From the IMG/VR virus record IMGVR_UViG_3300025030_000071, positions 1 through 64,000 of that record: 64,000 nucleotides of DNA, one strand, 5' to 3'. This document shows positions 1,551 to 44,474 of this stretch, one piece after another. A program made the translations under genes and the position numbers. This DNA comes from a virus. Positions within the stretch are counted from its first letter, which is position 1. The number at the start of each line of letters is the position of its first letter. The notes under the pieces are model-generated. The model was not told the DNA's origin and ran no database searches. It saw only the letters and a list, made by a program, of their open reading frames with translations.

Positions 1551-1694
1551 ATGAATGCTTCAAGTAAAGATGACCCATTGGATTGTAAATATGTTCAGCT
1601 TTGTTTGAAAGATTTTATGCAGAAACATGAATTGGGTAAGTTTACAGAATTAAAAGATTTGTTAAGAGAAATTAGTAGTGAATTAAATGATTAA
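1551..1694 (+). CDS. Small hypothetical protein, start uncertain
   Basis: The frame is open from 1335 to 1694. The credible part is the C-terminal half, a charged helical segment ending in LREISSELND. ATG 1551 gives 47 residues and TTG 1488 gives 68. Neither has a clear ribosome site. The frame lies +1 relative to the preceding gene, whose last codons are CCT TGA, so a +1 slip could join the two. The stop overlaps the next ATG (ATGATTAA), which fits a coupled operon. The function is unknown. Confidence 0.4.
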   Translation: MNASSKDDPLDCKYVQLCLKDFMQKHELGKFTELKDLLREISSELND

Positions 1695-2514
1695 AGATGA
1701 CGGGGTTTCAGATAAACCATTAGAGAATATGCCCCGTGGGGATAAGATGGCTTTAGTCAGGTTTGATGGTACTGCTATTACCGAGAAGGGCAATCTAGTT
1801 AAGCATAATTGGTTTAAAGCTCTAGAGTTTAACCCAGCTAAGTATGCTGACATTGTGATGACCCCAGCAGAGGCTCAAGCCTTACAAGCTGCTCAGTATC
1901 GGATGAGTACTGGGGCTTCAATCGGAAGTATTATGATTTGTAGAGGGGCTCAAGCTTGTCCCCGCGCGGCCACGTGCCCCCTAGTCGCCATTCAGGAGGA
2001 GATAGACAGAAAAGGCGAAGCTCGTAACGTCCTACCCATCAACAGAAATTGTCCAATCGAAGAAACTATCTTTAGAGATACCCTGATTAAACTGGCTCAA
2101 GAGTTTGACCTTACTGATGAAGATGGAAACTTTACTGATCAAAGATTGGCTCTTGAACTAGCTGAGATCGAAGTGCTTGAAAGCAGGATGAATACCATCT
2201 TGTCAGTTAGATATCAAGACCTTACAGAAGAGAAGATTGTTTCAGTTATGGAAGACGAAACTGGAACAAGGACTCAATATGTTAAAGATATTGCAGATGC
2301 TTTTAAGGTAAAAGAAAAGTTAGATTTTAGAAAAGACAAGATCAGAAAGGATCTAGTAGCTACTCGTTACGACCAAAGGAAACTCTCGGCTCAAGAGACC
2401 AGCAAGTTCACTGATGCTTCTAGTATACAAACCAATCTGCTTAAAGAACTTAGAAGATTACAAACCCTTACTTTGCAGCAACGTGAAGAACAAAATCGGC
2501 CCACAGATGATTAA
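1687..2514 (+). CDS. Conserved-type phage protein with a four-cysteine cluster
   Basis: 275 residues. Cys85, Cys91, Cys97 and Cys122 (C-x5-C-x5-C-x24-C, three of them followed by Pro) form a likely zinc or iron-sulphur site after a helical MTPAEAQALQAAQYR segment. Residues 130-270 are mostly charged helix with coiled-coil character. It starts the dense block leading to the terminase, and the ATG overlaps the previous stop. A DNA-binding, small-terminase-like role would fit the position and the helical build, but no helix-turn-helix is evident, so I leave the function open. Confidence 0.8.
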   Translation: MIKDDGVSDKPLENMPRGDKMALVRFDGTAITEKGNLVKHNWFKALEFNPAKYADIVMTPAEAQALQAAQYRMSTGASIGSIMICRGAQACPRAATCPLVAIQEEIDRKGEARNVLPINRNCPIEETIFRDTLIKLAQEFDLTDEDGNFTDQRLALELAEIEVLESRMNTILSVRYQDLTEEKIVSVMEDETGTRTQYVKDIADAFKVKEKLDFRKDKIRKDLVATRYDQRKLSAQETSKFTDASSIQTNLLKELRRLQTLTLQQREEQNRPTDD

Positions 2515-2519
2515 TCACT

Positions 2520-5500
2520 ATGCCAATCAATCCACACTTTGAGGAGCTAGAAGCCGCTAAGTATTATTCTGGGCTAGCCCTTCAACGTCCACAACTACCC
2601 ACCTCTTTAGAAAGTCATCTACAATCAGCATTTAAACATGCTTCAATGTTTGACATTGAAACTGGTGACTTACATTCCTCAACTCCAATATATGAATCTG
2701 GGGTTCAACATGGAGTTGACAATCCCCAATTCTTTCATGCATTTGCAAGACCAACAAATATAGCAGGAACCTCAAGGGGTTATGTTGGAGGGTTTACTGA
2801 ACGTAGTCTCCAGAACCGCTTTGGCATGCCTGCTCAGGACGTTCTAGATATATTTGGAAAGTCTCCTTTAGGACAGAGAGACATTGTTGCTCAGACTCTG
2901 GATCAGCTTTCTGGTAGGGATATCTGGGTCCAGAACTTAAGACATGAGAGAGAATTTATCAATGCTAGGCTAGGCAGCGAAAAGGTCCAGGGTCCTGACG
3001 CTTTCTTAGAATGGGCAAAGAAGAACAATCTACAAACTCATAGTACAGGTCTTTATACTACTGATATAGGGATTAAAAGAGCTACTGTCCTTGCTAACCA
3101 AGGACAGTATTCTAAAACTCCAGTTGAACAGTATCTTAGCAGATGGGAAGGGGTATTTGGAGAATATAAGAGAGCTTTAGGAGGACCACGCCCACAAGGA
3201 ACTACTAGAGTCTTTGAAATGATGGATTTAACAAAGTCTGTCTTTGCGATGGCTCAGAGTAGAGGCTTTATGCCTCAGACTGGTGAACTATTTGCTGGCA
3301 CTGGGATTGAAGCTCTTTCAAGAGGTATGTTTGGTATCGGCGAAAGGCACACAAGCCTAGGAGACGCAGCTTTACAAGGAGAACTAACTAGACACCTTTA
3401 TGCTGCTGGTAACTTGATGTCTGAGAACCAGACATTACCTGAACAGTACCAGAAATTCTTCAAGAATATGGGGGATATTGTTCCCTATGCTAAACAGCGT
3501 GGTTTAGTTAAGAACATTGTTAGTACTTTTAGAGATATTGAGAAGTTTAAGCTAAGTGAGGAATTAGGCAGACCTGATTGGGATTTGTTGAGGGGCGCCA
3601 GAACAAAACCAGATCCAATACCTGGTAAGATGACCTTAAATACTCAGAATCCTGAAACTGGTGCTTATAGTGAAGAAGTCTACCATTACGTCACCAGAAA
3701 AGCAGTCCATCCATCGAACAAAGAATACTATACTACAGACATTAATGAATTAGTTAGTTCTTGGGAAGAGCAAGCCAAAGGTCGTCATGGCGTAATCCCG
3801 GACTACAAAGCCGCTTTAGAAGAAGCACGTAGAGAGTATATTGCTCCTTATCAAGCTCGGAAAACTCAATTAGGAGGTTCCACTTCTGGTGCCCTTCTTG
3901 AGACTGAGTCTTTATTTGAAGAACTCTCCCAAAAAATTGATAAGCAGATTACCTCCAGGATAGGCATCCCGCTAGAAGTAAAACCTTCTGGTTTTAAAAC
4001 AAAACTTTCCTCTTTTGCCAAAGAAAACTGGCCTACAGCTCTTCTGGTTGGTGGGGCCATGCTCGCTGGTGGTTGGCTCTTCTCTGGTAGAGACGATGAA
4101 TACAACACTATTGAAGGCTTAAGGCACCAAGGTTTCGCAGGAGAAACTAGAAGCAAAGTTACTGACTTCGGTTCAGGATTTGATCCATTAAAGCAATTGG
4201 CTAAGCAAGCCAATATGAGTTTTGGGGACATACTGAATCACCCTAATCTAAAAAGATTGTTAGAAGAAGGTAAAATTCTAAAAGAACTTGGGACTGGCAA
4301 GTTTGGCAAAGCAGACTTGATGGAGACTGCGCTAGGGACTGTTCCATTCAAGTATGTTAGAAAGACCCCTCACAGCATAGACTACCTCCTTACTAACGAA
4401 GATACCATTGGTAAAAGCCCAGAATTCATAAATAACTGGGCGATGTTAGCCCAAAGGGATATTAAACAAGAGGCCCTTGCATTAAGAAGACTTAGCGATT
4501 CAGACCTTACACCAACCCCATATCTTTTTGCAAAAAACAGACTCTATATGGAGTTAATGCCAGGGACCAGGGTGGCTGACATCTATGATGCCCCAGGATT
4601 AAAGCAAAAGCTCAAACCAAAACTAGAAGAAATGTTAAACATTTCTAGAAAATACGGCGTTTATAACGAAGATATTCATGGTGGAAATATCTTGTTTGAC
4701 AAATCTAGTGGCAGAATGTCTTGGATTGATTTCGGAGCCTCTTATTTCTTTCCTAGAGGTGTAAGGCAGCCCGAACCAGAACAAGAAATGGTTCGATCTT
4801 TTAATAAAATCCTGGATTACTTTACACCAACCCCAGTCCAATCAAACCAGTTCTCTGGTTTTGACGATGCTTATAATACCATTGAAGGGCTCAGGCATGG
4901 TGGTGTTGCCGGTGCCAATAGAAATAGGATTACTGATTTCGGTTCAGGTTGGGATCCATTAAGAAGTCTTCTTAGAGCGGAAGAAACATTAGCTTCTATC
5001 TTCAGAGACAAAGCAGTGCAACAGGCTTTTATTAATGCTAAAGAACTAAAAATTCTTGGTAAAGGTGAATTCGGCACATCTTATCTCATGGAGACTACAG
5101 TCCGAGGCAAACCCTTCCAGTTTGTACGTAAAAGAGGAAAGATAGGAGAACACGAAGCCGAATTTGCAACACGTGCAGAAGATTCAGTTGCCCCAACTGT
5201 TTATGGGCATTCACGCAGACATATAGATATGGAGTATTTTCCTGGTGAACTGTTAGGAGACGTACCGGCTGACGAACTTGCTGCTATGGGCGTTGGAAAG
5301 ATTGAAGATGCCGTAAGAGCAATACACAAAGTTGGTATTTTTCATAACGATCTGCATTTTAGTAATATGATGCGTGTTAAAACGCCACAGGGCAAACATG
5401 AAATTGGTATTATTGATTTTGGTTATCCTTATGCTGCTGCTTCAGGCACCCCAACTAAGCCATTAAGAGTTCGTCGAACCCCTTCTGAAAATCATCTAAC

Positions 5501-6737
5501 ATTTCAAGATATAACCCTGGGACAAGGCTTTACTGAAGATATGGCTCGGGTTAGAGAAAGTTTTGACTATTATTCTGACCCAGTTTGGCGTGCCGCCGAA
5601 GCTCAAAAACTTCAAGCTTTAGCTCCTACCAAAAAAGTTCCAACCAGGAATATGCAACTCCAAGCTCAGTTGCACATGCAACACGGCCAAGCCCCTGACC
5701 GCATCCAAGCTAACATCCAAGGCAATACTATTCCTGGTTTCCAAGAAGAAGCTCCTATAACTGGCAAAAAAGGTATAATGGCTAGGCTCAGACACTTCTT
5801 CGGTTTCGGTTCTCCTTGGCAAGGCATGTCTGACGAAGATAAATATAACCTCTCTGTCTATGGTGTAGAAGGCTTAAACCGTAAATATGGTCATCCAAGT
5901 TCAGCTAGTATAAAAATTAAAGATTACTTCGTTGAAGATGCTGATACTATCAGATTACTAATGGAAGGCGGCAAAGAAAGAACAATTCGTCTAGCTGGTA
6001 TTGATGCTCCTGAAATTTCACACGATGAAGATTACTCAACTAATAGAGTAAATCAAGATCAGCCTTATGGCTCTCAAGCTGCTACTAGATTAAAAGATAT
6101 TCTAGCTCAACAAGATTCATTAAGAGCCATTATTGATCCAACTGGTGGTTCTACTTATGGTCGTGACGTTGGGGTTTTGGTTGGCGCTGATGGCCAAAAC
6201 ATCAACTTAGAACTAGTCAGACAGGGCGCAGCAGCTTCTTTGCCCTTCGGTGATATCTCAAGTCGATTAGTAGATACTAATGAATTTAGAAAAGCAGAAG
6301 AAGAAGCTTCTGCTCAAGAAGAAGGCATGTGGGGTTTCCAAGGCTGGCAAAATGTCAGAGACCTACAAGAGGGCATGAAGCGTCGAATAACCAACACAAC
6401 CTTTACAGACCCTAAAGACTTATTTAACAACTTTAAAGCTGCTTCAATGGCCGCCAGATTAAACAACCCAGATGATGATCTTTCAGATATGCAAGCTGCT
6501 GGTGGAAGAGACGATTTTAATATTCTAGAAGGTTTAAGACACGGTTGGGCTTCTTCAAATAGAAAACTAAATACTGACTTTGGCTCTGGTTACAAAACCT
6601 CAGATGTAATTGAAACAATGAAACTCTCAACTAAGACCCATCGTATTCTACAAAAGGGCCAAAGAAGAGCAAACAGTTATATGAGAAACGCTGTCAGAAA
6701 CAACAAACAAATGATGATAGGTCATCATATAGGATAA
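2520..6737 (+). CDS. Multi-domain protein: DEDDh exonuclease, two kinase-like domains, SNase domain
   Basis: 1405 residues. Domains in order: (1) a DnaQ-like 3'-5' exonuclease, with Exo I FDIETGD (Asp45, Glu47), an Exo II-like stretch near 137-152 and Exo III His277-x4-Asp282; (2) a membrane-type segment, 505-522; (3) kinase-like domain 1, with GTGKFG (591-596), Lys615, Asp718 and Asn723 in DIHGGN, and DFG at 737; (4) kinase-like domain 2, with GKGEFG (847-852), Lys871, HND with Asp944, Asn949, and DFG at 966; (5) a staphylococcal-nuclease (thermonuclease) fold, about 1127-1280, with Arg1157, Glu1165 and Arg1215 matching its three catalytic residues. An EGLRHGG/TDFGSG motif stands before each kinase (525, 782), in degenerate form before the nuclease (1105), and near the C-terminus (1331). 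All catalytic residues I checked are present, except that HxD of kinase 1 reads NED. I infer a virion-delivered or membrane-attached enzyme. Confidence 0.88.
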   Translation: MPINPHFEELEAAKYYSGLALQRPQLPTSLESHLQSAFKHASMFDIETGDLHSSTPIYESGVQHGVDNPQFFHAFARPTNIAGTSRGYVGGFTERSLQNRFGMPAQDVLDIFGKSPLGQRDIVAQTLDQLSGRDIWVQNLRHEREFINARLGSEKVQGPDAFLEWAKKNNLQTHSTGLYTTDIGIKRATVLANQGQYSKTPVEQYLSRWEGVFGEYKRALGGPRPQGTTRVFEMMDLTKSVFAMAQSRGFMPQTGELFAGTGIEALSRGMFGIGERHTSLGDAALQGELTRHLYAAGNLMSENQTLPEQYQKFFKNMGDIVPYAKQRGLVKNIVSTFRDIEKFKLSEELGRPDWDLLRGARTKPDPIPGKMTLNTQNPETGAYSEEVYHYVTRKAVHPSNKEYYTTDINELVSSWEEQAKGRHGVIPDYKAALEEARREYIAPYQARKTQLGGSTSGALLETESLFEELSQKIDKQITSRIGIPLEVKPSGFKTKLSSFAKENWPTALLVGGAMLAGGWLFSGRDDEYNTIEGLRHQGFAGETRSKVTDFGSGFDPLKQLAKQANMSFGDILNHPNLKRLLEEGKILKELGTGKFGKADLMETALGTVPFKYVRKTPHSIDYLLTNEDTIGKSPEFINNWAMLAQRDIKQEALALRRLSDSDLTPTPYLFAKNRLYMELMPGTRVADIYDAPGLKQKLKPKLEEMLNISRKYGVYNEDIHGGNILFDKSSGRMSWIDFGASYFFPRGVRQPEPEQEMVRSFNKILDYFTPTPVQSNQFSGFDDAYNTIEGLRHGGVAGANRNRITDFGSGWDPLRSLLRAEETLASIFRDKAVQQAFINAKELKILGKGEFGTSYLMETTVRGKPFQFVRKRGKIGEHEAEFATRAEDSVAPTVYGHSRRHIDMEYFPGELLGDVPADELAAMGVGKIEDAVRAIHKVGIFHNDLHFSNMMRVKTPQGKHEIGIIDFGYPYAAASGTPTKPLRVRRTPSENHLTFQDITLGQGFTEDMARVRESFDYYSDPVWRAAEAQKLQALAPTKKVPTRNMQLQAQLHMQHGQAPDRIQANIQGNTIPGFQEEAPITGKKGIMARLRHFFGFGSPWQGMSDEDKYNLSVYGVEGLNRKYGHPSSASIKIKDYFVEDADTIRLLMEGGKERTIRLAGIDAPEISHDEDYSTNRVNQDQPYGSQAATRLKDILAQQDSLRAIIDPTGGSTYGRDVGVLVGADGQNINLELVRQGAAASLPFGDISSRLVDTNEFRKAEEEASAQEEGMWGFQGWQNVRDLQEGMKRRITNTTFTDPKDLFNNFKAASMAARLNNPDDDLSDMQAAGGRDDFNILEGLRHGWASSNRKLNTDFGSGYKTSDVIETMKLSTKTHRILQKGQRRANSYMRNAVRNNKQMMIGHHIG
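4092..4190 (+). repeat. EGLRH/TDFGSG motif, copy 1 (coding)
   Basis: Encodes residues 525-557 of the multi-domain protein. It carries DDEYNTIEGLRH and TDFGSGFDPL and comes directly after the membrane-type segment and before kinase-like domain 1. Copy 2 is at 4863-4961, a degenerate copy is at 5832-5894 and the last is at 6510-6593. Confidence 0.75.
4863..4961 (+). repeat. EGLRHGG/TDFGSG motif, copy 2 (coding)
   Basis: Encodes residues 782-814 (DDAYNTIEGLRHGG and TDFGSGWDPL), immediately before kinase-like domain 2. Copies 1 and 2 with their kinases look like one tandemly duplicated module. Confidence 0.75.
6510..6593 (+). repeat. EGLRHG/TDFGSG motif, last copy (coding)
   Basis: Encodes residues 1331-1358 (DDFNILEGLRHG and TDFGSGY), about 50 residues after the nuclease domain and close to the C-terminus. 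Confidence 0.7.
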
Positions 6738-6741
6738 TATT

Positions 6742-7140
6742 ATGTCAGTAACAACAAAAATCGGCCAATTTGCCCGATGGGCTTACGAAAAAGGCGTGGC
6801 AGGCTGGGCGTCAGGGCTTAACAATGCCAAAGGTGGATGGGCCAGAGGTGGCCTCAAGGGCTTTATGGGAGCAGCTAAAGGTAGAAGGATGGCGGCACTA
6901 GGACGTGGCGCCTTGGACACTTATAGGCTTGGGAGAACGGGCCTTGGCCGTTGGGACTCTGCGGCGGCAGCAGCATCTACTTATGCTGGTCCTACTGCTC
7001 AAATGGCTGGTAGTTGGTTAACGGCTGGCAATTTAAGAGGCAGAGGCGCTTATCGTTTTGCTTCTTCTGCTGCCAGGATCGGAGCCACTGGAGCCGCTCT
7101 TGATTTCTTAAATCCATTCTCATTAGGTTTTAACGACTAA
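6742..7140 (+). CDS. Small Gly/Ala/Arg-rich protein
   Basis: 132 residues, strongly basic, rich in Gly, Ala, Arg and Trp, with no charged-acid patches. Amphipathic helices with GRGA/GGWARGG patterns suggest membrane or DNA contact. It follows the multi-domain enzyme after 4 bases. Composition links it to the proteins at 7143 and 9294. The function is unknown. A minor virion protein carried with the DNA would fit. Confidence 0.75.
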   Translation: MSVTTKIGQFARWAYEKGVAGWASGLNNAKGGWARGGLKGFMGAAKGRRMAALGRGALDTYRLGRTGLGRWDSAAAAASTYAGPTAQMAGSWLTAGNLRGRGAYRFASSAARIGATGAALDFLNPFSLGFND

Positions 7141-7142
7141 AC

Positions 7143-7976
7143 ATGGGACTTAGGAATTTTGGAGCCAAAGATAGGGCTATATTTGGTAAAGTAGCTGGTG
7201 GAGTTGGCTTCTTTGGCGGGTCAGCTATAGGCTTGCTTGGAGCTGCTGGCAAGCTAGGAATGTCTGGCATGGCTGGCTTCAATAAAGACTTAGGTAATAT
7301 CTTTACTGATTATAGAGGCTGGCGCCGGAACACATTAAAAAAATTAGGTCAAAACAGAAGAGGTGCCGATATAATCCAAGCGCGAGAGACCTATGGCCCC
7401 CGCAGATCACCAAAAGCTTATGAACATGCAGACAAATACGGCCGCCAATATAACCGTAAAACTGGTGTATATGGTGACCGTAAGTTCATGGCTAGAACGG
7501 CAGGCGAGCATCTAAACAAAGGTGCTAGAAATATTGGCAGGACTTTAACCTCTAAGGCATTCTGGGGATTAAATATTGGCATTGCTGCTGTAATGTCTGA
7601 AGGTGATCCTTTAGACCCAAATACCGGGATGGTCAAACATGTTGCCAGCTCCGCTGGCGGATGGCTTGGTTGGGAGGCAGGAGGCTCCCTAGGGGCCGCA
7701 GCAGGCCTTCTTGTAGGTGGACCCATAGGCGCAGCCATTGGATACGTTGCAGGTGCCTTCTTGGGCGCTGAGGGAGGGATGGCCTTAGCTGAAGCCCCAT
7801 GGAAGATGTCTGAGCTAGGCCACAAATACGGAAGAAATTCTAAAGTAAGAAGGTCTACTTTCATTGACTCAGAAGGTGCAATGACAATGCGCCAGAGAGG
7901 GATCCAAGCCATAGCAAGATCGCAAATGTCGGCGAAAGGTGCTATGGGCCAAGAGGCACTTATGATGCACGGATAA
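7143..7976 (+). CDS. Gly-rich membrane-type protein with glycine zipper
   Basis: 277 residues. The N-terminal 45 residues are Gly/Ala-rich and hydrophobic (GGVGFFGGSAIGLLGAAGKLG). The middle is very basic. Residues 170-218 hold a long glycine-zipper hydrophobic stretch with the GxxxG spacing of pore-forming or tightly packed membrane helices. It starts 2 bases after the previous gene. I cannot name a family. Membrane insertion during ejection is a reasonable guess, given its neighbours. Confidence 0.8.
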   Translation: MGLRNFGAKDRAIFGKVAGGVGFFGGSAIGLLGAAGKLGMSGMAGFNKDLGNIFTDYRGWRRNTLKKLGQNRRGADIIQARETYGPRRSPKAYEHADKYGRQYNRKTGVYGDRKFMARTAGEHLNKGARNIGRTLTSKAFWGLNIGIAAVMSEGDPLDPNTGMVKHVASSAGGWLGWEAGGSLGAAAGLLVGGPIGAAIGYVAGAFLGAEGGMALAEAPWKMSELGHKYGRNSKVRRSTFIDSEGAMTMRQRGIQAIARSQMSAKGAMGQEALMMHG

Positions 7977-8438: not shown

Positions 8439-8928
8439 ATTCCTATGTACTAGATTAAGTTTTTGGCTAGTGTTTCTATATGTTAAGCTCTTACAAAAAG
8501 CTCGAAAATTAGTTCACTGGCGCCCAAATAACGATATTCATATACCTTCTTATTCTAGCTTAAGAGATTACACCCCAAATACTTTAAAACCCTCAGTAGA
8601 TAAAAACACTCTGAGAGGTGCTAGCTTCATTACCGATCTTTTTGCTGCTACTTTTAATGTATTTAATCCTAACATCTTGCATTTACGTTGGTTAGACAAA
8701 TACAACAACGTTCAAAAGGCATCAGTAGCTATTTATACTTATCTGAATGGAACTGGCCCTAAATTCGGCTGTTTCATGCATGGTATGCATTTTCGTAGCC
8801 AAGCTACAATGTCAAAGTTATTAGGTATTGTTATGCGTTCATATGACGGCTATAAGCTTTTATCTTATGGTTTAAGCAATTCAGATGGAAAATTACTAGA
8901 TGTTGTCATTTGCGGAAAGGATAGCTAA
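8416..8928 (+). CDS. Hypothetical protein with N-terminal membrane segment
   Basis: 170 residues from ATG 8416, chosen over the in-frame TTG at 8398 because AAAGGT (8403-8408) lies at the right distance. Residues 9-26 are hydrophobic after a basic N-terminus (a signal-anchor shape). The rest is soluble alpha/beta with no known motif. It overlaps the preceding gene by 23 bases and the next by 29. Confidence 0.75.
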   Translation: MLKAIKTKFLCTRLSFWLVFLYVKLLQKARKLVHWRPNNDIHIPSYSSLRDYTPNTLKPSVDKNTLRGASFITDLFAATFNVFNPNILHLRWLDKYNNVQKASVAIYTYLNGTGPKFGCFMHGMHFRSQATMSKLLGIVMRSYDGYKLLSYGLSNSDGKLLDVVICGKDS

Positions 8929-9292
8929 GGTAAACACCAAAGCTTCTATCAAGTTCCAAAAGAGGAAGAAGAAAACAACCCCTCCGCCCAAAACAACCAA
9001 AAAATCAACCTCTTATGAAGAAGCCAAGAATCTATACAATACTCCAGAATATAAAAACTGGAGAATGTTTATATTAAAGAGAGACAGCTTCTCTTGTCAG
9101 TTATGCGGTCAAGAAGGCGGAGCTTTAGAAGCTCATCATATTCTAAGAAAATTTGACAGACCAGACCTAACTTTAGATACTAAGAATGGCATTACGCTAT
9201 GTAAGTATTGTCATCGGGTGATTGTTACAGGAAAAGAAAAATTCTTTGTATACATATTTACTCGACTACTAGAACTCAGGGAGATGAAATAA
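8900..9292 (+). CDS. HNH endonuclease
   Basis: 130 residues. A Lys/Pro-rich N-terminus (residues 15-38) precedes an HNH fold: WRMFILKRDSFSCQLCG with a first CxxC, EAHHILRK with the catalytic His pair, then a long loop, NGITLCKYCHR with a second CxxC and the final His. This is the phage HNH pattern with a structural zinc held by two CxxC knuckles. The gene lies one gene upstream of the large terminase. HNH proteins next to terminases are known to assist DNA packaging in several phages, so a packaging role is more likely than a homing role. It is free-standing. Confidence 0.85.
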   Translation: MLSFAERIAKVNTKASIKFQKRKKKTTPPPKTTKKSTSYEEAKNLYNTPEYKNWRMFILKRDSFSCQLCGQEGGALEAHHILRKFDRPDLTLDTKNGITLCKYCHRVIVTGKEKFFVYIFTRLLELREMK

Positions 9293-10157: not shown

Positions 10158-12539
10158 ATGCTAATTCCCTATGATCAACTTCATCCTGGATGCAAGTTGT
10201 GCTTAAAACAAAATGTAGCTAAGCATGACATTATTGATCCAGAAACAAAGAGAGTCCTTTATAAGAAAGGCTCTTTTCCTATCAAATGCGATGGCATACC
10301 CGCCGATCCAGAATCTAATCTAGTTCAGATTACAGACCCAAGTATTGTAAGAGCGATGGGTGGAGAAGGTGCCATCAGAGAAATGGCCCGCATTCAAGAC
10401 CCAATCTTATGGGCTCAAGACAACATCACTATTGTCAATCAAGAAACAGGAGACAGAGGCCCCTGGCTCCCTCAAGGCGCCACAAGAGACAACATAGAAA
10501 GATATCACCTAGATTCTACTTCAGCTTACTACCAAGAGTTAATGGTTAGGTGTACAGCTAGAAGAAGTGTTTATCGTATTGGCAGGCGTTGTATCCCACT
10601 TACTGAACCAATTGTAATGTCAGATGGTTCGATTAAGGCTATTGGCGATATTGAAGTTGGTGATTTAGTTCTTTCTTACAACTTTATAACTAAGAAAATA
10701 GAAATAAAACAAGTACTTGAAGTATTTGAGAATGGTAAACAAAAAATCTTCCAAGTAAATGTTGAAGGCAGGAGAAGAGTAACTTGTACTTCTAACCACC
10801 CAATTTACACTGTTGAACGTGGATGGCTAACAATCGATGATGGTTTAGAAGTTGGCTTTCATGTTCTAACCCTTACTGGGAACAAGAAAGATGTCGAACA
10901 AACCCTAATCACCTCAATAAAAGAAGATGGTGAAGAAGACACTCGTGATATCTCAATTGAAGATAACTACAACTTCTTTGTAGACAAGATTTTAGTCCAT
11001 AACAGTGGCAAGTCACATAGCTTAGCAACAAAAGCTCTTCATAAAATGTGTACTAATGAAAGTTATAAAGTAATTGTTATTGCCCCAGGCCTTTCCCATA
11101 TTGACAATATTTTTGACATCATCAATGAGTACGTTGAAGGCTCTCCCAGTCTTAAAAGTTCAAAGAGACGTTTTGTTAGGACTCCTTACAGGGCTCTTGA
11201 ACTGCAAAATGGTTCAAGGATAAGAGGCTTTGTTTCTGGCGGAGAGACAGTTCGGGGTCAAGGCTCCGACATGATTATCATTGACGAAGCTGCTTACGTA
11301 GGCAGAACCGATCTTGAAGCCATCTTGTTCATCTTAACCGAACATAAAAATACCATTCTTCTTGCATCTTCGACTCCCACAGGCGCCCGCGAACAGTTCT
11401 ACAAATGGGACATGGACGAAACATTCAAGTCCTTCCATTATCCATCCATGTGCCGTCCAATCTGGGACGTTGACATGGAAACAGAAATGAGAAAGGAAAA
11501 CCCTGGTATTAAATACCGCCATGAAGCCCTAGCTGAACATGGTGAAATGGGTCAAGGTGTTTTCCAACACGAATTTATTGATAGAGCTCTAAACGCAGGG
11601 GATTACGAATACAAAAATAGTAGGTATGACCCTTCATGGATATACACGATAGGCGTTGATTGGAACCCAGTTCATGGAACTGAGATTGTTGTTGTTGGCG
11701 CCGATTCCCAACTAAACCCTCCTAAATACACTGTTGTTGACATGGGGCAAGTCTTCCGAGAAGGCCACACCCAAATGCAGGCCATGAGAGAGATCATTGA
11801 CCTTACCAGGAAGTGGAAGCCTGCTGCTATTTATGTGGATAGAGGAGCTGGAAGCGTCCAGGTAGAATTTTTAGAAGAAATAGGTTCGATGAAAGGGCAA
11901 GACGAAGAGCTGAAAAGTCTTGCTAGCATCATAACCCCAATCGACTTTGGTAGCAAGATCACCATCTCTCACCCGCTTACCGGTGAACAGCGAATAGACT
12001 TTGCTAAACCTTTAGTAGTTGAAAATGCAGTTCGAATGTTGGAAGGCGATTTGATCCAACTTTCAAGATATGACTCGATACTTGAACAACAACTTCGTGG
12101 TTTTATCATTGCGAAAATAGGTTCTGGCGGAAGGCCCGTCTATACAACCATCAGTGAGGATGTTGAGGACCATAGGCTAGATGCTTTCATGCTGGCCTTA
12201 TTTGCATTCATGAAGGAATTTTCAAGACTTGGAAAGCCAGTTTTCAATTCAGATGTTCAGATAGTTGAAACCTTACGGAGTCTAGCAACTGACCTCAACA
12301 TTTCCGAAATGCCAAGTCCTTACCAAAAGCATCGGCCTACAAGCCGTACAATAGATAAGCAAAAAGGTCTTGACAAGATGGTAGAATCAGATCGAGAATT
12401 TGGCTTGCTTGCTCCCAGCGAGATTAAGACTGGACAATACAGCCCTTCTTACCGTCCATTCAGCGACCAAAGACAAAAAAATACATCACTTTCGCCAGGC
12501 TCAAACAGAAGCGCGATTAGACGTTCTAACATCAGGTAG
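10158..12539 (+). CDS. terL: Terminase large subunit, interrupted by a mini-intein
   Basis: 793 residues as encoded, about 655 after intein removal. The ATPase packaging motor: the Walker A is rebuilt by splicing (GRR then SGKS), and Walker B IIIDEA has Asp376 and Glu377. The C-terminal RNase H-like nuclease has Asp501 (GVDWN), Asp561 (VDRGAG) and Asp675 (LDAFM). The intein occupies residues 145-282, so the unspliced protein cannot hold ATP normally. The N-terminus has a CKLC pair of unknown role. A tail of about 100 Pro/Ser/Arg-rich residues follows the nuclease. It lies just after the HNH gene and before the head genes, as usual for packaging modules. Confidence 0.95.
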   Translation: MLIPYDQLHPGCKLCLKQNVAKHDIIDPETKRVLYKKGSFPIKCDGIPADPESNLVQITDPSIVRAMGGEGAIREMARIQDPILWAQDNITIVNQETGDRGPWLPQGATRDNIERYHLDSTSAYYQELMVRCTARRSVYRIGRRCIPLTEPIVMSDGSIKAIGDIEVGDLVLSYNFITKKIEIKQVLEVFENGKQKIFQVNVEGRRRVTCTSNHPIYTVERGWLTIDDGLEVGFHVLTLTGNKKDVEQTLITSIKEDGEEDTRDISIEDNYNFFVDKILVHNSGKSHSLATKALHKMCTNESYKVIVIAPGLSHIDNIFDIINEYVEGSPSLKSSKRRFVRTPYRALELQNGSRIRGFVSGGETVRGQGSDMIIIDEAAYVGRTDLEAILFILTEHKNTILLASSTPTGAREQFYKWDMDETFKSFHYPSMCRPIWDVDMETEMRKENPGIKYRHEALAEHGEMGQGVFQHEFIDRALNAGDYEYKNSRYDPSWIYTIGVDWNPVHGTEIVVVGADSQLNPPKYTVVDMGQVFREGHTQMQAMREIIDLTRKWKPAAIYVDRGAGSVQVEFLEEIGSMKGQDEELKSLASIITPIDFGSKITISHPLTGEQRIDFAKPLVVENAVRMLEGDLIQLSRYDSILEQQLRGFIIAKIGSGGRPVYTTISEDVEDHRLDAFMLALFAFMKEFSRLGKPVFNSDVQIVETLRSLATDLNISEMPSPYQKHRPTSRTIDKQKGLDKMVESDREFGLLAPSEIKTGQYSPSYRPFSDQRQKNTSLSPGSNRSAIRRSNIR
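10590..11003 (+). other. Mini-intein inside the terminase P-loop
   Basis: 138 residues, Cys145 to Asn282. Block A starts CIPLTEPIVMSDGSIK. Block B is the TSNHP segment, with its His. Blocks F and G run through NYNFFVDKILVHN. The C-terminal His-Asn is followed by extein Ser283. There is no room for a LAGLIDADG or HNH endonuclease, so this is a splicing-only element that cannot home by itself. It cuts the Walker A motif between Arg144 and Ser283. Confidence 0.93.
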
Positions 12540-15278: not shown

Positions 15279-18200
15279 ATGTCTGAATCAACAATCATTG
15301 ATTTCACAACCAGTAAAAGAACTCCTGGTGACTGGATTGCTAGTCTTGCCGATGTAGCTAAACCTTCAGATAATCCTGCTAGCCATATTTCTCTCGTTAG
15401 ACTTAGCTCTCCAGCAGTAAAAAGACCAACCCTAACTTATTTCGAACCTAACGTTTCTTCTAGACGATCAGATACTGCCGACTTCCACGAACCAGAATAT
15501 AATATGATTGATCCTGGCACTATAGAGGATATTGAATCCTACATATATCAGGGTAATCTAAAGAAATTAGCTTTAGCAGTCAAAGAAGGCTGGGCCTTAG
15601 TCGGCAAAAACAAACAAACAACTGAATATATCAAGAAACGTTTCTCCCAACTAGAGATAGCACAAGGCCAGACTATGTTTGGCCTTTTCTCAGAAATCAT
15701 ATCTACTCTTTTAAGATGGCACAACTGTTATATCCTAAAAGTTAGAGACCCAGAAGCTTCTGGTGGCAAAGTTAGAAGTGTTAATGGAAAGATTATTAAA
15801 CCAGTTGCCGGTTATTTCGTCGCTAGCCCAAACACCATTAAAACAAGAATAGGTAAAGATTACAAAGTCTCAGCTTATAAGCATGTAATGCCTGATGGAA
15901 GATTCAAAATTTTCCCAGCTGATGACGTAATTCACTTACATATCTTCAAGAAACCCCACTTCATAACAGCAGCTCCACCTATCACCCCAATGGCAGATGA
16001 CGTTGCTGCTTTACGTCGTATCGAAGAACATGTTGAGAACTTAGTCTACCAACACATATATCCTCTCTACCAATACAAGATTGGAACTAAAGATTATCCA
16101 GACGTTCGCAGAACAGAGAATGGCTTAACTGAAATTGAATCAGTTGAGAACAAATTAAGAAATGCCCCTACTGACTCAATGCTTGTTACCTCATTCAGAC
16201 ATGAGATTACAGGTATTGGTGCAGAAAGTAGAGCCTTAAGAGCAGAACCATTTTTAGAATACTTCAAGAAAAGAGTAATCACTGGAACTTCTTTATCTGA
16301 GATAGACTTCGGCGATGGGAACACTGCGAACAGGGCCTGCTATTCAGAGGACACTCAAACATTAACAGAAAATGGTTGGAAATATTATTGGGAGATAGAG
16401 GAGGAAGAAAAAATAGCAACTTTTAATCCTAAGACTAATGGTTTAGAGTATCATAAACCGGAAGGTGGCATTTATCTATATGATTATGAAGGGCCAATGC
16501 ACCATTTTAAGAACAAAAACGTAGACGTATTGGTAACTCCTGAACATGACATGTGGGCATTAATGAATCAATTTCAAAATCCGAGATGGGAAAAGATACA
16601 AGCAAAATCGCTTACTGGACATAGATTCAGTTTTAGGACTGGTGGAATTAATTGGGAGGGGATAGAACCAGAAAACTTTCTGCTACCATTTGTCCCATGT
16701 AAAAGCAATATAAAATTTGAAAATAGTATAAGATTTGATAGGATTAACATTTATGACTGGCTAGAGTTCTTAGGATATTACGTAAGTGAAGGTCATCTAG
16801 TTAAAGGCGCTTGGAGAGTCGAACTTAGCCAGTCTGAAACTATTAATCCAGCAAAAACTGAAAAAATAAGAGCATGTTTAAGACGTTTGCCTTTCAAATT
16901 CTGTGAAAATCATGACTCAGATGGAATGGTAAGATTTAGAATAAATTGTAAGTCACTATACTTATATTTAGAAGAAGTTTGTGGAGATTATTCATATCTC
17001 AAACATTTCCCAAGTGAGATTCTTAGTTACTCTAAAGAATATTTAAGAGTGGCATTTGAAGCAGCAATGCTGGGAGATGGGACAACGGATATTAGAGAAG
17101 GTAGGACAAACCGAGCATATAGTTCTACATCAGAGATGCTTTTAGACCAAATGCAAGAAATTGCTATAAAATTAGGGTATAAGGCTCATATTATAAGATC
17201 CGGGGTACCAAGGGTAAGTATTTCAGAATCTGAAACTTCTATGGTAAAACAAGATCAAGTAGAAATTACTAATTATAGTGGGAAAGTTTACTGTTACCGT
17301 GTTCCCAATCACCTCTTCATCACCAGAAGGAATGGACGAATAGGCATACATGGCAACACAGCCACAGTTTTATCAAATCTAGCTATTGGTATAGTTAAAT
17401 TTTACCAGCTATGTTTGTCTAATGATTTAAATTTCCATATCATCAGAGAACTTTTATTAGAAAGTACATTTACTTTTGATGTTCTCTCAGAAGAAAATAT
17501 GGTTGAGCTTCAGTTCAAGGAAATTGATCTTGAAGCTCAGGTCAAAAAACAAAACCACTTTGCTCTACTTTACCAAAACAATTTGATAAGTCATACCGAA
17601 GCAAGAATGCTTGCTGGGTTTGATGTTTTAGCTCCTGACCAAGAATCCGACATGTTCCAAGAACGAGTCAAGATCCCAGAAATTGAACAAGCAGCTAAAG
17701 CGCAGGCTCAAAACCGCCAGCAACCAACTAACCAATTCGGTACTGCTTCAGGCCCTTCAGCAAGCAAGTCTTCTTTAGAACCAAGTTTTACATTTAGAGA
17801 TGATCTGGGGAATGACCTTTATAGCGATTTGACCGATGACCTACACAATTTGAACAAGAAGCAAGTAGATCTAAACTTTGTTCGACAACTCTTTCTTTCA
17901 ACCAAAGACCAAATACTCATCAAATTAGCTCCTAAACTAGAACAAGAAGTCTTTCATGGCGCCAGAGGACTAAGAATAGATAACAATTTATTGATTCGTC
18001 TCTCAGCAATTAACAGAGCCATGTTTAGGGATCTTGAACAAGATGTAGAACGGCTAATCAGAGAAACTTTAGTCAAGACAAGTGCCGAACTAGCGATTGG
18101 CAAGAGAGATAACCTTTCAATTGATACTTTGCAGTTTAGAATGCGGTTCATAGAACGTTCTAGAAAACACCAAGCATATATACTTGGAAAAATGGCTGCC

Positions 18201-18377
18201 CTTGACGCAAATGGTATAAATGAAGTGAGTATAGCCTGTGAACCAGATGGAGAACACTATAATATCTGGCATAACACGGTTATTGGAGTTAAGAATCCTG
18301 ATTTAGATCTACTACCTTTTAGTAGAGCAAATTGCCGTTGTGATATAGTGCCAATCCGGAGAGACGCCAATGTCTGA
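15279..18377 (+). CDS. Portal protein with LAGLIDADG intein and MuF-like C-terminus
   Basis: 1032 residues as encoded, about 692 after splicing. The portal ring forms the DNA channel at the capsid vertex. Residues 80-350 and 694-790 have portal character: an FSEIISTLLRWHNCYILKV helix region, then FASPNT-like and DDVIHLHIFK segments. Residues 354-693 are an intein. The last 90 residues, with an RKHQAYILGK helix and the PFSRANCRCDIVPI motif, resemble the Mu gpF/SPP1 gp7 minor head domain, so this is a portal-MuF fusion. The start follows the previous stop directly. Portal identity rests on motifs plus position between the terminase and the protease. Confidence 0.9.
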   Translation: MSESTIIDFTTSKRTPGDWIASLADVAKPSDNPASHISLVRLSSPAVKRPTLTYFEPNVSSRRSDTADFHEPEYNMIDPGTIEDIESYIYQGNLKKLALAVKEGWALVGKNKQTTEYIKKRFSQLEIAQGQTMFGLFSEIISTLLRWHNCYILKVRDPEASGGKVRSVNGKIIKPVAGYFVASPNTIKTRIGKDYKVSAYKHVMPDGRFKIFPADDVIHLHIFKKPHFITAAPPITPMADDVAALRRIEEHVENLVYQHIYPLYQYKIGTKDYPDVRRTENGLTEIESVENKLRNAPTDSMLVTSFRHEITGIGAESRALRAEPFLEYFKKRVITGTSLSEIDFGDGNTANRACYSEDTQTLTENGWKYYWEIEEEEKIATFNPKTNGLEYHKPEGGIYLYDYEGPMHHFKNKNVDVLVTPEHDMWALMNQFQNPRWEKIQAKSLTGHRFSFRTGGINWEGIEPENFLLPFVPCKSNIKFENSIRFDRINIYDWLEFLGYYVSEGHLVKGAWRVELSQSETINPAKTEKIRACLRRLPFKFCENHDSDGMVRFRINCKSLYLYLEEVCGDYSYLKHFPSEILSYSKEYLRVAFEAAMLGDGTTDIREGRTNRAYSSTSEMLLDQMQEIAIKLGYKAHIIRSGVPRVSISESETSMVKQDQVEITNYSGKVYCYRVPNHLFITRRNGRIGIHGNTATVLSNLAIGIVKFYQLCLSNDLNFHIIRELLLESTFTFDVLSEENMVELQFKEIDLEAQVKKQNHFALLYQNNLISHTEARMLAGFDVLAPDQESDMFQERVKIPEIEQAAKAQAQNRQQPTNQFGTASGPSASKSSLEPSFTFRDDLGNDLYSDLTDDLHNLNKKQVDLNFVRQLFLSTKDQILIKLAPKLEQEVFHGARGLRIDNNLLIRLSAINRAMFRDLEQDVERLIRETLVKTSAELAIGKRDNLSIDTLQFRMRFIERSRKHQAYILGKMAALDANGINEVSIACEPDGEHYNIWHNTVIGVKNPDLDLLPFSRANCRCDIVPIRRDANV
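16338..17357 (+). other. Intein with LAGLIDADG homing endonuclease, in the portal gene
   Basis: 340 residues, Cys354 to Asn693. Block A is CYSEDTQTLTENGWK. Block B is VLVTPEHDMWAL, with its His. Two endonuclease motifs follow: FLGYYVSEGHL near 496-508 and AAMLGDGTT near 592-603. The end reads NHLFITRRNGRIGIHGN, followed by extein Thr694. The penultimate residue is Gly rather than the usual His, a variant compatible with splicing in some inteins. The acidic residues of both LAGLIDADG helices (Glu, Asp) are kept, so an active homing enzyme is possible. Confidence 0.92.
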
Positions 18378-40670: not shown

Positions 40671-43600
40671 ATGGAAGAAAAGCCTCTTATCAGTGGTGTT
40701 GATAAAAAGCCTTTTATCGAAGTCACCAACCATGAATACGATGAATCTAGAAGATGGACCCAGGGGCTAACTTATCTTGCTCTATCAAGTGTGGCTTTAG
40801 TTGGTGTTAGGTTCGCCAGCAATATTACTTTAAATATAGATCCAAGTAGATTATCTTATCTTACTCAGGGTCTTGGCAACTGGTGGGAAGTAGCTGGTTA
40901 TCAATTAGATGCAACTGGCAAAACCCCAGTTAGATTAAGAGACTTCGCCTTAGAAGGCATCAAGCGTGTCGAAGAAACCATGGGGGGCATTCCGAGAACC
41001 TTCGGTCTCTTTGGATATGCTTCCGCCGGCACGCTGACAACTCCTGCCTCTCGTTTAACAATTCCCCCAGAAGCTCTTGTTGGAGCTAGATCCCATTACG
41101 AAACCCTCTTAGGTGAAGCTGGTCATACTCTAACCCCAGAGGACATGATCAGAGGCTTCAAGGTCCAGCCGCACGAAGGCAGACCAGCTTTGTTCCGCCT
41201 TGCCCCTGACAGTAGTATCTCTGGCGACCCACTTATCTCCGATGTAGATATCAGAGCACGTCGTTGGCAGGTCGAAAAGGACTCCCTTCGAGATGCTGAA
41301 GGTCGCCTCAAATACCAACACGTAATCAAAGAAACAGAAGTCTACAGTGATATCGCCGGCGCCAAACCAATCAGCAGAAACAATGAATTCAGATATGTAG
41401 TAACTAAAGCTACTGGTAAACCAAAAATCTCTGGAGTCTTGAGAGAAGCGTTAGAACCATTCCTTAATGTTGATAAGTTAGAATCAAAGATAAACATTCC
41501 TCCAGAAGCCCACAAAGTACTTCAAGGTGCTCAGGTATTTGGAAAGCGCATGACGGAACGTTATATGCGTGTTCTAGATAGCCCGTTGGAATTCATAGAA
41601 GAAGTTGTTTATGGTGGACCTTCTTCTGAAAGAGGACTTCTTAAAAAGAGTATTGAAAGCAAACCATATTCATTCTTTAAGAATGTCTTGGGTGCAGGAG
41701 GGGATTATTCAGGCACTGCTTTAGACTTGTGGGGTCGTCATATAAGCAGGCTCCTGCCAATTGTTGTTGGTGGTGCAGCTGCTTATGAAGTCGGCTCTGC
41801 TGTAACAAATCTTTTCTTTGGCAGAAATCTAGAACAGATGGGAGGAGAAGCTGTTGCAGCAGGTGAAAGAACTTATGCTGGCATCTCTGACCTTACAGGC
41901 CTAACTGCTCTAAACAAATATCAAAAAGACAAAGCAGAAGGCTCTCACCGGCTCTTAGGCGTTATGGCTTTTCCACTTTCGGGTGCTCTAACTGGATGGG
42001 TAGCCGCCGGCCTAACAAACAAATTAGCAACCCCTGAAGGCGTTTTCCCTTGGGCACATGCCAGAGAAGCGGTCCATGATGCCCCAGCTATTCTCCAGAA
42101 AGCGGAAAAGGTTCCACTCCTAGGTAAACTCTTTGGTGCTGGGATGACTAGAGGAGCTAAATTCGCTGGGATAGGTGGAGCTATTGGCGGGCTTCTTTCA
42201 TTACCATTCTTAATTGGTTCTTTAGGTTCCGGCTCCTCCTATAGGGAAGTGGCTGCTGAGCAGTCTGGAGAAGCTGAAGTATCTATAAAGAAAGGAAGAT
42301 TTTGGGAATCCGGAAAGTCGGACATCGAGGGCGAAGGAGAACAGATCTATACTGAAGGCTGGTATAGAAGATTAATGAACGAAGGCATAGACGACCTTAA
42401 TTATGGAGACTATGCTGACAGACCTTTCTCAAGAATGATTAAAGGAGTTACAGATCCCTACTACATTGAAAAAGAAATGTATCATGAAAGACCTTACCCA
42501 ATTGCAACAGCAGATGATTCTTTTGCGGGTCCGTTAGGTCCAATCTGGGCGGCCACAATAGGTAGAGTTCTAAAGCCAACCAAATATATGCATGCTGATG
42601 AAACATCCGCAGGCGGCCTCGAAGGCATCCAGCAAGGCGAAGCAATCCAGTATGGGAAGGACGTCTCTCAAGCCCCAGGAGGCGATTTAAGGAGTTCTGG
42701 ACCTGCGCCTGCACTCACCCCCTTAAGCCCATCCTTCACAGCCGGAGAAACGATCTACAGAGCTTCTGACGCTGCTGGTTTACCTGGTTATATATTAAGC
42801 GAAGCCCTCGGCTCAGACTCTTGGTGGGCTGACAAACCAGTACTTGCTTCTTCAAGTGATATTGGCAATATGCGTAATTCATTCTGGGATTGGGAAATTG
42901 GTGGTGGCGCCATGACCAGTGAGGGAATCCGCAGATTTCTTCCCAAAGACAGAACTGATATCCAAACCGTTAACCCAATTGCAAACGATATGCCTGCATG
43001 GCTCCCAGGGGCTGATTACTTCCAAGGCTCATTCTTGGAAGGGGACCCTTACTCTGGCAGAAGGATGAAGGAAAGACTGCCAGGCCCTGGTTTCGCTTCT
43101 CGCTTCCCAGAATTGGAAGATGTTCCATATGAAGAATATCCTGATATCTTCAAGTACAAGATATTAGCCGATGTTGCTAGGTCAAGTGATGAGTTTAAAG
43201 AAGTAGCTGGCAGAGTTAAAAACCAAGCAGACTCTGGAGAACTCCCCTATAGAGATCAGGCTATTTATGCTGGGACCCAAGCACAACTCTTAGAAAGAGA
43301 AAAGAAACTTTCATTTAGAGGAGAGCCAGAAGGCATCTTAGGCAACTACTGGGCGGGTCTAACCTCAGCCGGCCACCTAAACCCAGTTGAACATTTACTG
43401 CCCACCTCTCCTGTACATAAATCCTCAGGACCAGTTTCACCAATCCAGACTTATGAAGAACGAGAAGTATACAGCAAGACTTCTCCTCAATGGAATAAAC
43501 CAATAAGTGATTTCATTTTACCAGCAGCTAGAACAGCCGTTGCCGCAACTGGTGTCGATTTCATCCCAGCTCCAGTCCAAGAAGAGCGAGATCTAAAACA

Positions 43601-44474
43601 ATACTTTGATATCTTAGATTATACTAAAGCTAAAAAACTAGAAGGTGCTGCTAGAGAACAAGGTGAAGGCAGAGCTGCTTTTGCTTTTGCTAGAAAAGCT
43701 GAATTCACTATGTACGGTGCTGATCCATATGCCGACGTAGAGACAGTTGAGAAGGTAATCCCCCGAGAAGAGAAACCATACTTCAGGGAATTTGTTGCTG
43801 AAGATGACCCAGAAGTTAGAAAGAGAGTGCTTGAAGCCTCTCCAGCATATATGAAGAAATTCTATATGGCTCAATGGCAAAAGAAACTCTATGGGTTCTT
43901 AGCCTCCAAAGATGAAATCTCTGACCAAGAATCAGAAGCCATGCAGGCTATTGAAGCTTCTAGAGCCTTAGAAGGCCAGTCAGCTTCAATGGATATGTTC
44001 GGGGACTACTACTCAGGTGTTCAATCAGGTGATATAAGACCTAACACCTTTCCTGATTTTATTAGGGCAAAAAGATTAGAGGGTTATTTTGAAGAAGAAT
44101 CTCCTTTTAATGCACCAGCTTCGGATTGGATCGGCTACAATCCTGGTGCTAATATGGACAGTATCAAGCTAAAAGTAGTACAAGCAGAAGGACTCGACCA
44201 CCACGATTTCGATTTGTGGGAAGATGATTCAGCCCAGGCTGAACGAGATTTGTACGCTGCCGAAGGTGCTAGGGATCTAATGAATGGCCCTGGAGAAGAC
44301 CCTAACGAATTATCTAAATCTTTAATGGCTCTTAGATTAAGAGATTTGGATGTTCAGTTCACCAGTTCACCAGGAGACAAAACTAGAATAGTTTTAGATC
44401 TTGCGATGGATAAACGTGGTGAGATTAAGCGCCAACTTGAGCTTCAAGGGATCAGGTATGGAGTCGACACGTAA
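40671..44474 (+). CDS. Giant tail/ejection protein with several membrane segments
   Basis: 1267 residues. Membrane-type segments lie near 33-54, 361-384, 433-452 and 498-521, the last three Gly/Ala-rich. After residue 540 it is soluble and acidic, with a KKGRFWESGKSDIEGEG and EGWYRR patch. It lies in the tape-measure position after the chaperones. Either it is the tape measure or it is an ejected membrane-channel protein. I know no characterised function. Its stop overlaps the next ATG (TAATG), so the two giants are coupled. Confidence 0.82.
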   Translation: MEEKPLISGVDKKPFIEVTNHEYDESRRWTQGLTYLALSSVALVGVRFASNITLNIDPSRLSYLTQGLGNWWEVAGYQLDATGKTPVRLRDFALEGIKRVEETMGGIPRTFGLFGYASAGTLTTPASRLTIPPEALVGARSHYETLLGEAGHTLTPEDMIRGFKVQPHEGRPALFRLAPDSSISGDPLISDVDIRARRWQVEKDSLRDAEGRLKYQHVIKETEVYSDIAGAKPISRNNEFRYVVTKATGKPKISGVLREALEPFLNVDKLESKINIPPEAHKVLQGAQVFGKRMTERYMRVLDSPLEFIEEVVYGGPSSERGLLKKSIESKPYSFFKNVLGAGGDYSGTALDLWGRHISRLLPIVVGGAAAYEVGSAVTNLFFGRNLEQMGGEAVAAGERTYAGISDLTGLTALNKYQKDKAEGSHRLLGVMAFPLSGALTGWVAAGLTNKLATPEGVFPWAHAREAVHDAPAILQKAEKVPLLGKLFGAGMTRGAKFAGIGGAIGGLLSLPFLIGSLGSGSSYREVAAEQSGEAEVSIKKGRFWESGKSDIEGEGEQIYTEGWYRRLMNEGIDDLNYGDYADRPFSRMIKGVTDPYYIEKEMYHERPYPIATADDSFAGPLGPIWAATIGRVLKPTKYMHADETSAGGLEGIQQGEAIQYGKDVSQAPGGDLRSSGPAPALTPLSPSFTAGETIYRASDAAGLPGYILSEALGSDSWWADKPVLASSSDIGNMRNSFWDWEIGGGAMTSEGIRRFLPKDRTDIQTVNPIANDMPAWLPGADYFQGSFLEGDPYSGRRMKERLPGPGFASRFPELEDVPYEEYPDIFKYKILADVARSSDEFKEVAGRVKNQADSGELPYRDQAIYAGTQAQLLEREKKLSFRGEPEGILGNYWAGLTSAGHLNPVEHLLPTSPVHKSSGPVSPIQTYEEREVYSKTSPQWNKPISDFILPAARTAVAATGVDFIPAPVQEERDLKQYFDILDYTKAKKLEGAAREQGEGRAAFAFARKAEFTMYGADPYADVETVEKVIPREEKPYFREFVAEDDPEVRKRVLEASPAYMKKFYMAQWQKKLYGFLASKDEISDQESEAMQAIEASRALEGQSASMDMFGDYYSGVQSGDIRPNTFPDFIRAKRLEGYFEEESPFNAPASDWIGYNPGANMDSIKLKVVQAEGLDHHDFDLWEDDSAQAERDLYAAEGARDLMNGPGEDPNELSKSLMALRLRDLDVQFTSSPGDKTRIVLDLAMDKRGEIKRQLELQGIRYGVDT

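Follow-up and report, generated by a model that had tools for sequence, protein, structure and literature searches.

We show here that an uncultivated virus encodes a single polypeptide of 1405 residues that carries a DEDDh exonuclease, a membrane-type span, two compact kinase domains and a staphylococcal nuclease, in this order, with a previously unrecognised motif of about 36 residues at the joints. Thirty-seven other proteins of uncultivated viruses carry the motif, and their modules differ from phage to phage. In the preliminary description the protein appeared as a one-off oddity; it turns out to belong to a large family of shuffled proteins that the motif unites. We regard it as a multi-enzyme effector that is probably made late, packaged in the virion and ejected at infection.

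The DNA analysed (the window) comprises bases 1-64000 of an 86,748-base IMG/VR virus record. The open reading frame runs from 2520 to 6737 on the plus strand and contains no internal stop codons. The virus is a myovirus, as a gene for a contractile-tail sheath is found at 33637, and its terminase is nearest to that of the Acinetobacter jumbo phage ME3 (34% over 76% of the query).

Enzyme domains of the 1405-residue protein

The exonuclease domain occupies residues 34-299 (2619-3416, plus strand). A profile of the N-terminal region matches PolC/DnaQ exonucleases (1.3e-8), and DnaQ and RNase T are the top structural matches of its model. D45, E47, H277 and D282 are invariant across nine sequences. 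The second catalytic Asp of the DEDDh set is replaced by Glu in the window protein and its nearest relatives (E143 within QNLRHE), but the canonical HNxxFD is present in members that are less closely related. Thus, the earlier assignment is upheld by a DnaQ-like profile and fold but not for the complete catalytic set, and the exchange to Glu143 may weaken the active site.

The two kinase domains follow at residues 580-755 (4257-4784, plus strand; Gly loop, Lys, D-x-x-x-x-N and DFG) and 836-983 (5025-5468, plus strand; K871, E879, D944, N949 and DFG at 966-968). Pfam recognises an ABC1 kinase, with residues 671-749 as the best stretch (2.6e-8), and a Pkinase, with residues 901-974 as the best stretch (2.4e-7). 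A profile built from 18 kinase regions, both window domains and relatives, matches solved protein kinases (best 1.2e-14). The AF2 model of kinase 2 reaches pLDDT >90 over most of the core, and a Foldseek search with it returned protein and RIO kinases as the nearest folds. Lys, Glu, Asp, Asn and DFG are retained in both copies in the alignment, so that all hallmarks of the protein kinase-like superfamily are found: Gly loop, Lys, Glu, catalytic Asp, Asn, DFG and the kinase fold. The catalytic motifs read YNED and HND, without a His-to-Asp insert, and the core stops shortly after DFG. The two kinases do not stem from a recent duplication, as they share 35% identity with the motif included. A reading as a defence system was likewise dropped, because the PADLOC matches to PD-T4-6 and MkoA are weak and generic to kinases.

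The staphylococcal (thermo)nuclease domain lies at residues 1135-1280 (5922-6359, plus strand). Pfam SNase (PF00565) covers residues 1155-1271 with E=2.6e-16 and 60.4 bits against a cut-off of 21, and the catalytic Asp/Asp/Arg/Glu/Arg residues are intact in an alignment of 16 members. All four enzyme domains are hence backed by profiles and two of them also by structure models. These results bear out what had been read from the letters, namely an exonuclease, a span, two kinase-like domains with intact catalytic residues and a thermonuclease with Arg/Glu/Arg intact in one chain. It had also been stated that no described phage protein has this set; this holds for the isolated-phage collection, in which no match covers most of the protein, and the combination of exonuclease, kinase and SNase in one protein was not found in the open-licence literature. 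Between the named domains, residues 300-500 and 985-1130 have no relatives in the family set, apart from a degenerate motif within the latter, and the C-terminal tail (residues 1360-1405; 6597-6734, plus strand) is common to the relatives L013 and L042.

A repeated motif at the joints of shuffled modules

The motif, which the preliminary description had missed, has the consensus FSGKDDxYNTIEGLxHGGxAxxxRxxxTDFGSG[WY]. Four copies are found in the window protein on the plus strand, at residues 521-556 (4080-4187), 777-813 (4848-4958), 1069-1106 (5724-5837) and 1326-1359 (6495-6596). The third copy, between kinase 2 and the SNase, is degenerate, yet 0 of 2000 shuffles score as high; it ends with FGSPWQGM, like the SNase-proximal motifs of L013 and L045, and the corresponding L042 sequence is FASPWQGA. 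In a six-frame scan of the window a recurring conserved segment was detected in this reading frame only. A scan of viral contigs with the whole protein returned no relative; alignment of the motif did, in dozens of contigs. After removal of near-duplicates and of an 11-residue chance match, the set comprises 38 proteins, the window's included, with 103 clear motif copies (1-6 per protein); the viral-contig scans used degenerate patterns, which miss divergent members. In 21 whole records a whole-motif search found the motif in no other gene. It is absent from 50,697 isolated-phage records and 72,556 plasmids, has no Pfam or PHROG match, and in bacterial and archaeal genomes (~85,000 species) met only the 11-residue chance match. 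A single PDB match (sTIM11_h3) was discarded because its domain scores were insignificant.

Directly before the first motif lies a hydrophobic, Gly-rich membrane-type span, TALLVGGAMLAGGWLF (about residues 504-520; 4029-4079, plus strand). The span proposed earlier is thus real, and its placement is a family trait: 28 of the 38 proteins have a similar span immediately ahead of one or more motifs, in most cases the first, and 32 of the 103 motifs are preceded in this way versus 3.7 expected. The motifs also avoid the enzymes. They never overlap kinase, SNase or exonuclease domains (0 overlaps), whereas rotation gave a mean of 24.1 and a minimum of 11 in 5000; this test used these three domain types only, the boundaries of unnamed modules having been seeded from inter-motif segments.

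Copies within one protein are about as diverged as copies from different proteins (identity 0.538 versus 0.515), which argues against a recent tandem duplication. Despite this divergence about 20 positions are conserved, and synonymous codons vary freely at the invariant residues. Selection on the motif therefore acts at the protein level, and a role as DNA-level recombination site was rejected. On sequence grounds, this conservation speaks in favor of a function at the protein level that involves a common partner. In the kinase 2 model the motif is of low confidence (<50), which fits a flexible segment and, with a shallow alignment, is weak evidence.

The modules between the motifs differ among the proteins in kind and in sequence along the chain. 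Profiles identify kinase modules in 20 proteins (23 copies), the SNase module in 16, the window-type DEDDh exonuclease in nine proteins and in ME3, and a second type of DEDDh exonuclease in 12, some of them clipped. Other recurrent modules without any family match, such as M15, lie at the N terminus of the protein in some phages but at the C terminus in others. Exonuclease, kinase and SNase profiles occur together in six proteins (the window protein, L010, L011, L019, L020 and L037) in differing orders, the exonuclease being clipped in L011, L019 and L020. L037 has the same enzyme classes as the window protein, an exonuclease, an SNase and two kinases, in another order. Alignments show that catalytic residues are retained across divergent relatives. 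In all 10 records tested the capsid protein is conserved (34-63% identity), whereas the module sets differ. The majority of the family contigs are incomplete, with a 5' truncation in L042, L045, L066 and L074. Isolated phages hold no known family member except a motif-less exonuclease core, gp011 of ME3, and the exonuclease is the sole module in common with a cultured phage. Two single observations concern the modular proteins themselves: that of L038 (L038:5685-12917) holds an intein with a LAGLIDADG domain (Pfam), and one module of L012 (L012:3411-7781, residues 477-515) has a weak match to a DnaJ domain (E=9e-4), a hint of further effector types.

A chimera from misassembly, which the preliminary description had considered, is refuted by L037 and by 37 other viral contigs with homologous modules, which almost always lie at this locus. 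Together with the conserved neighbours and the continuous frame, this makes a chance fusion or assembly artefact hardly conceivable.

Gene position and proposed role

The gene lies 5 bases after the upstream reading frame, which ends at 2514, and 4 bases before the downstream one, which starts at 6742, a spacing to same-strand neighbours that is consistent with one operon. The upstream neighbour (1687-2514, plus strand; 275 residues) has no Pfam or PHROG match and contains a Cys-rich patch, CRGAQACPRAATCP; reading frames of about 250-290 residues occupy the same place in most family loci. Farther downstream on the same strand follow the terminase large subunit (10158), the portal (15279), the capsid protein (21439) and the sheath. 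A same-strand terminase is located 3-9 genes downstream in 34 of the 38 loci, and in the same 34 a gene for a Gly-zipper membrane-type protein (7143-7976, plus strand, in the window) sits between the modular gene and the terminase. Two small Gly-rich proteins are encoded directly downstream, at 6742-7140 and 7143-7976, the second with a clear Gly-zipper span, and both are candidate partners of the modular protein. The remaining loci (L029, L034, L038 and L078) have another neighbourhood, with shared clusters 18-23 upstream and a stretch that contains no terminase; M15 takes the N-terminal place in L038 and L078, where the exonuclease lies inside the chain.

Some further features of the region were observed. 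The terminase gene (10158-12539, plus strand), a fixed downstream landmark, and the portal gene (15279-18377) have intein-like inserts (about residues 145-283 and 354-705, respectively), a reading based on the sequence and on partial similarity to enzymes of unrelated families. Long terminase reading frames in several relatives possibly result from such inserts too. A small reading frame between the modular gene and the terminase (8900-9292) reads as an HNH-endonuclease-like Cys/His pattern. In the tail region, two very large reading frames (40671-50197; 1267 and 1907 residues) have no PHROG match, and one of 1931 residues (50197-55992) adjoins them.

It had been suggested that the protein could act early in infection by attacking host DNA and phosphorylating host targets. 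Since the gene belongs to a group of head and packaging genes, early action in the host would require packaging and ejection. The position of the gene thus suggests a protein that would be produced late, as part of the operon for head and packaging proteins, be loaded into the head and leave it with the DNA at infection. Host (or rival) nucleic acid would then be exposed to attack by the exonuclease and the SNase, with host proteins serving as substrates of the two kinases. The motif might serve as a tag by which each module binds to a conserved partner in the virion; alternatively, it might mark cut sites, so that separate enzymes are released, each keeping a tag. Judged by its sequence, a docking tag or a cut mark is the most likely function, but the motif could also be a spacer or a binding site that is used in the infected cell and not in the virion. 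More tentatively, and with less confidence than we place in packaging of the window protein, the motif might act throughout a large lineage of uncultivated phages as a so far unrecognised tag for sorting or docking. Any adjoining module would be loaded into the head and delivered to the host, and the gene would be a general cargo-delivery locus whose enzymes are freely exchanged.

Several other explanations draw on the same observations. The protein might be a polyprotein in which the motif is mainly a cutting site of the prohead protease and the enzymes work separately. A motif at every joint between enzyme modules of the window protein, the degenerate copy included, the avoidance of enzyme domains and the predicted disorder of the motif are in favor of this idea. 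We nevertheless consider it rather improbable as the main function, because about 20 conserved positions over 36 residues far exceed the needs of a protease site, and no other reading frame in the 21 whole records has the whole motif. Known prohead-protease sites comprise only a few residues. The hydrophobic Gly-rich span before at least one motif in the 28 proteins and the Gly-zipper neighbours would, in turn, suit an effector that is made in the infected cell, never packaged, and fixed at the host membrane by span and motif, its modules acting late or excluding rival phages. This is unlikely, as the gene order is that of a structural block and fits packaging at least as well, and ejected proteins can insert in membranes too.

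An enzyme of assembly or packaging was also considered, in which the exonuclease would process DNA ends in the head by trimming or finishing them, while assembly, and not the host, would be what the kinases and the SNase act on as regulators. The gene does lie within the block for head and packaging functions, no module other than the exonuclease is shared with a cultured phage, and the gene of the motif-less ME3 gp011 adjoins an annotated head completion protein gene, two genes before the terminase. Many relatives, however, are without a complete exonuclease, having another N-terminal module or a clipped one, and kinase and SNase content varies by phage while the capsid protein is conserved, unlike what a fixed enzyme would show. 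Hence, we hold this explanation to be quite unlikely. If the preferred reading of a packaged and ejected effector is right, one fixed phage gene would serve as an exchangeable effector cassette with modules marked by a short motif, and multi-enzyme take-over proteins would be assembled through shuffling at the joints. The motif offers a sequence handle for finding effector modules, several recurrent ones of which are without a Pfam match, and it is a candidate for the signal by which proteins enter phage heads.

Comparison with known systems

Internal head and ejection proteins are mostly separate polypeptides. The E proteins of SPN3US and Alt and the IPs of T4 are packaged in the head, presumed to act at infection and in some cases matured by proteolysis (PMC10052503); ejection is assumed for many head proteins of giant phages, some of which are cut by the prohead protease (PMC10052503). 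The window protein differs by having several enzymes in one chain with a repeated tag.

Similar in design are the polyvalent proteins of phages and conjugative elements, long chains with 2 to 15 distinct domains, kinases included, which have been proposed to be delivered with the DNA and whose genes lie near late genes (Iyer et al. 2017, PMC5512222). As in the window protein, several effector-type domains are found per chain, domains are shuffled and the genes are near late virion genes. However, the seed domains of polyvalent proteins (relaxase, MuF, Ard, DarA/DarB, N4 RNAP, T4 Alt) were not found in the window protein: these and the metallopeptidase gave no Pfam match in it or in the scanned relatives, although Pfam may not hold all of them. 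Furthermore, the polyvalent kinase family has an H-to-D insert and has lost the C-terminal subdomain, whereas the window kinases lack the insert; their core does stop shortly after DFG. Nothing on an SNase, a linker, a conserved motif, a transmembrane segment or a repeated motif was found in the text of that study (PMC5512222). Because the seed domains were not found and the kinase insert is absent, we do not file the window protein as a polyvalent protein; by analogy, it is a protein that would work like them, outside that class.

The lineage of long-tailed jumbo phages 0305phi8-36 and ME3 offers a homologue of the exonuclease core, ME3 gp011 (E=1e-4), in a similar gene order, but gp011 has 529 residues and neither motif, kinase nor SNase. 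In 0305phi8-36, the paralogue family 'a' is a short repeat unit in several virion proteins and was proposed to be a virion anchor (PMC2147016). That unit has about 50 residues and occurs in six different reading frames, while the window motif is found in one gene and in no isolated phage. With regard to the kinases, the compact OspG-like, RIO and ABC1 kinases share the core that ends shortly after DFG, and the family gave a Pfam match to OspG_kinase (in L040) and matches to RIO and ABC1 kinases. In contrast to those kinases, the window kinases are fused within a multi-domain phage protein.
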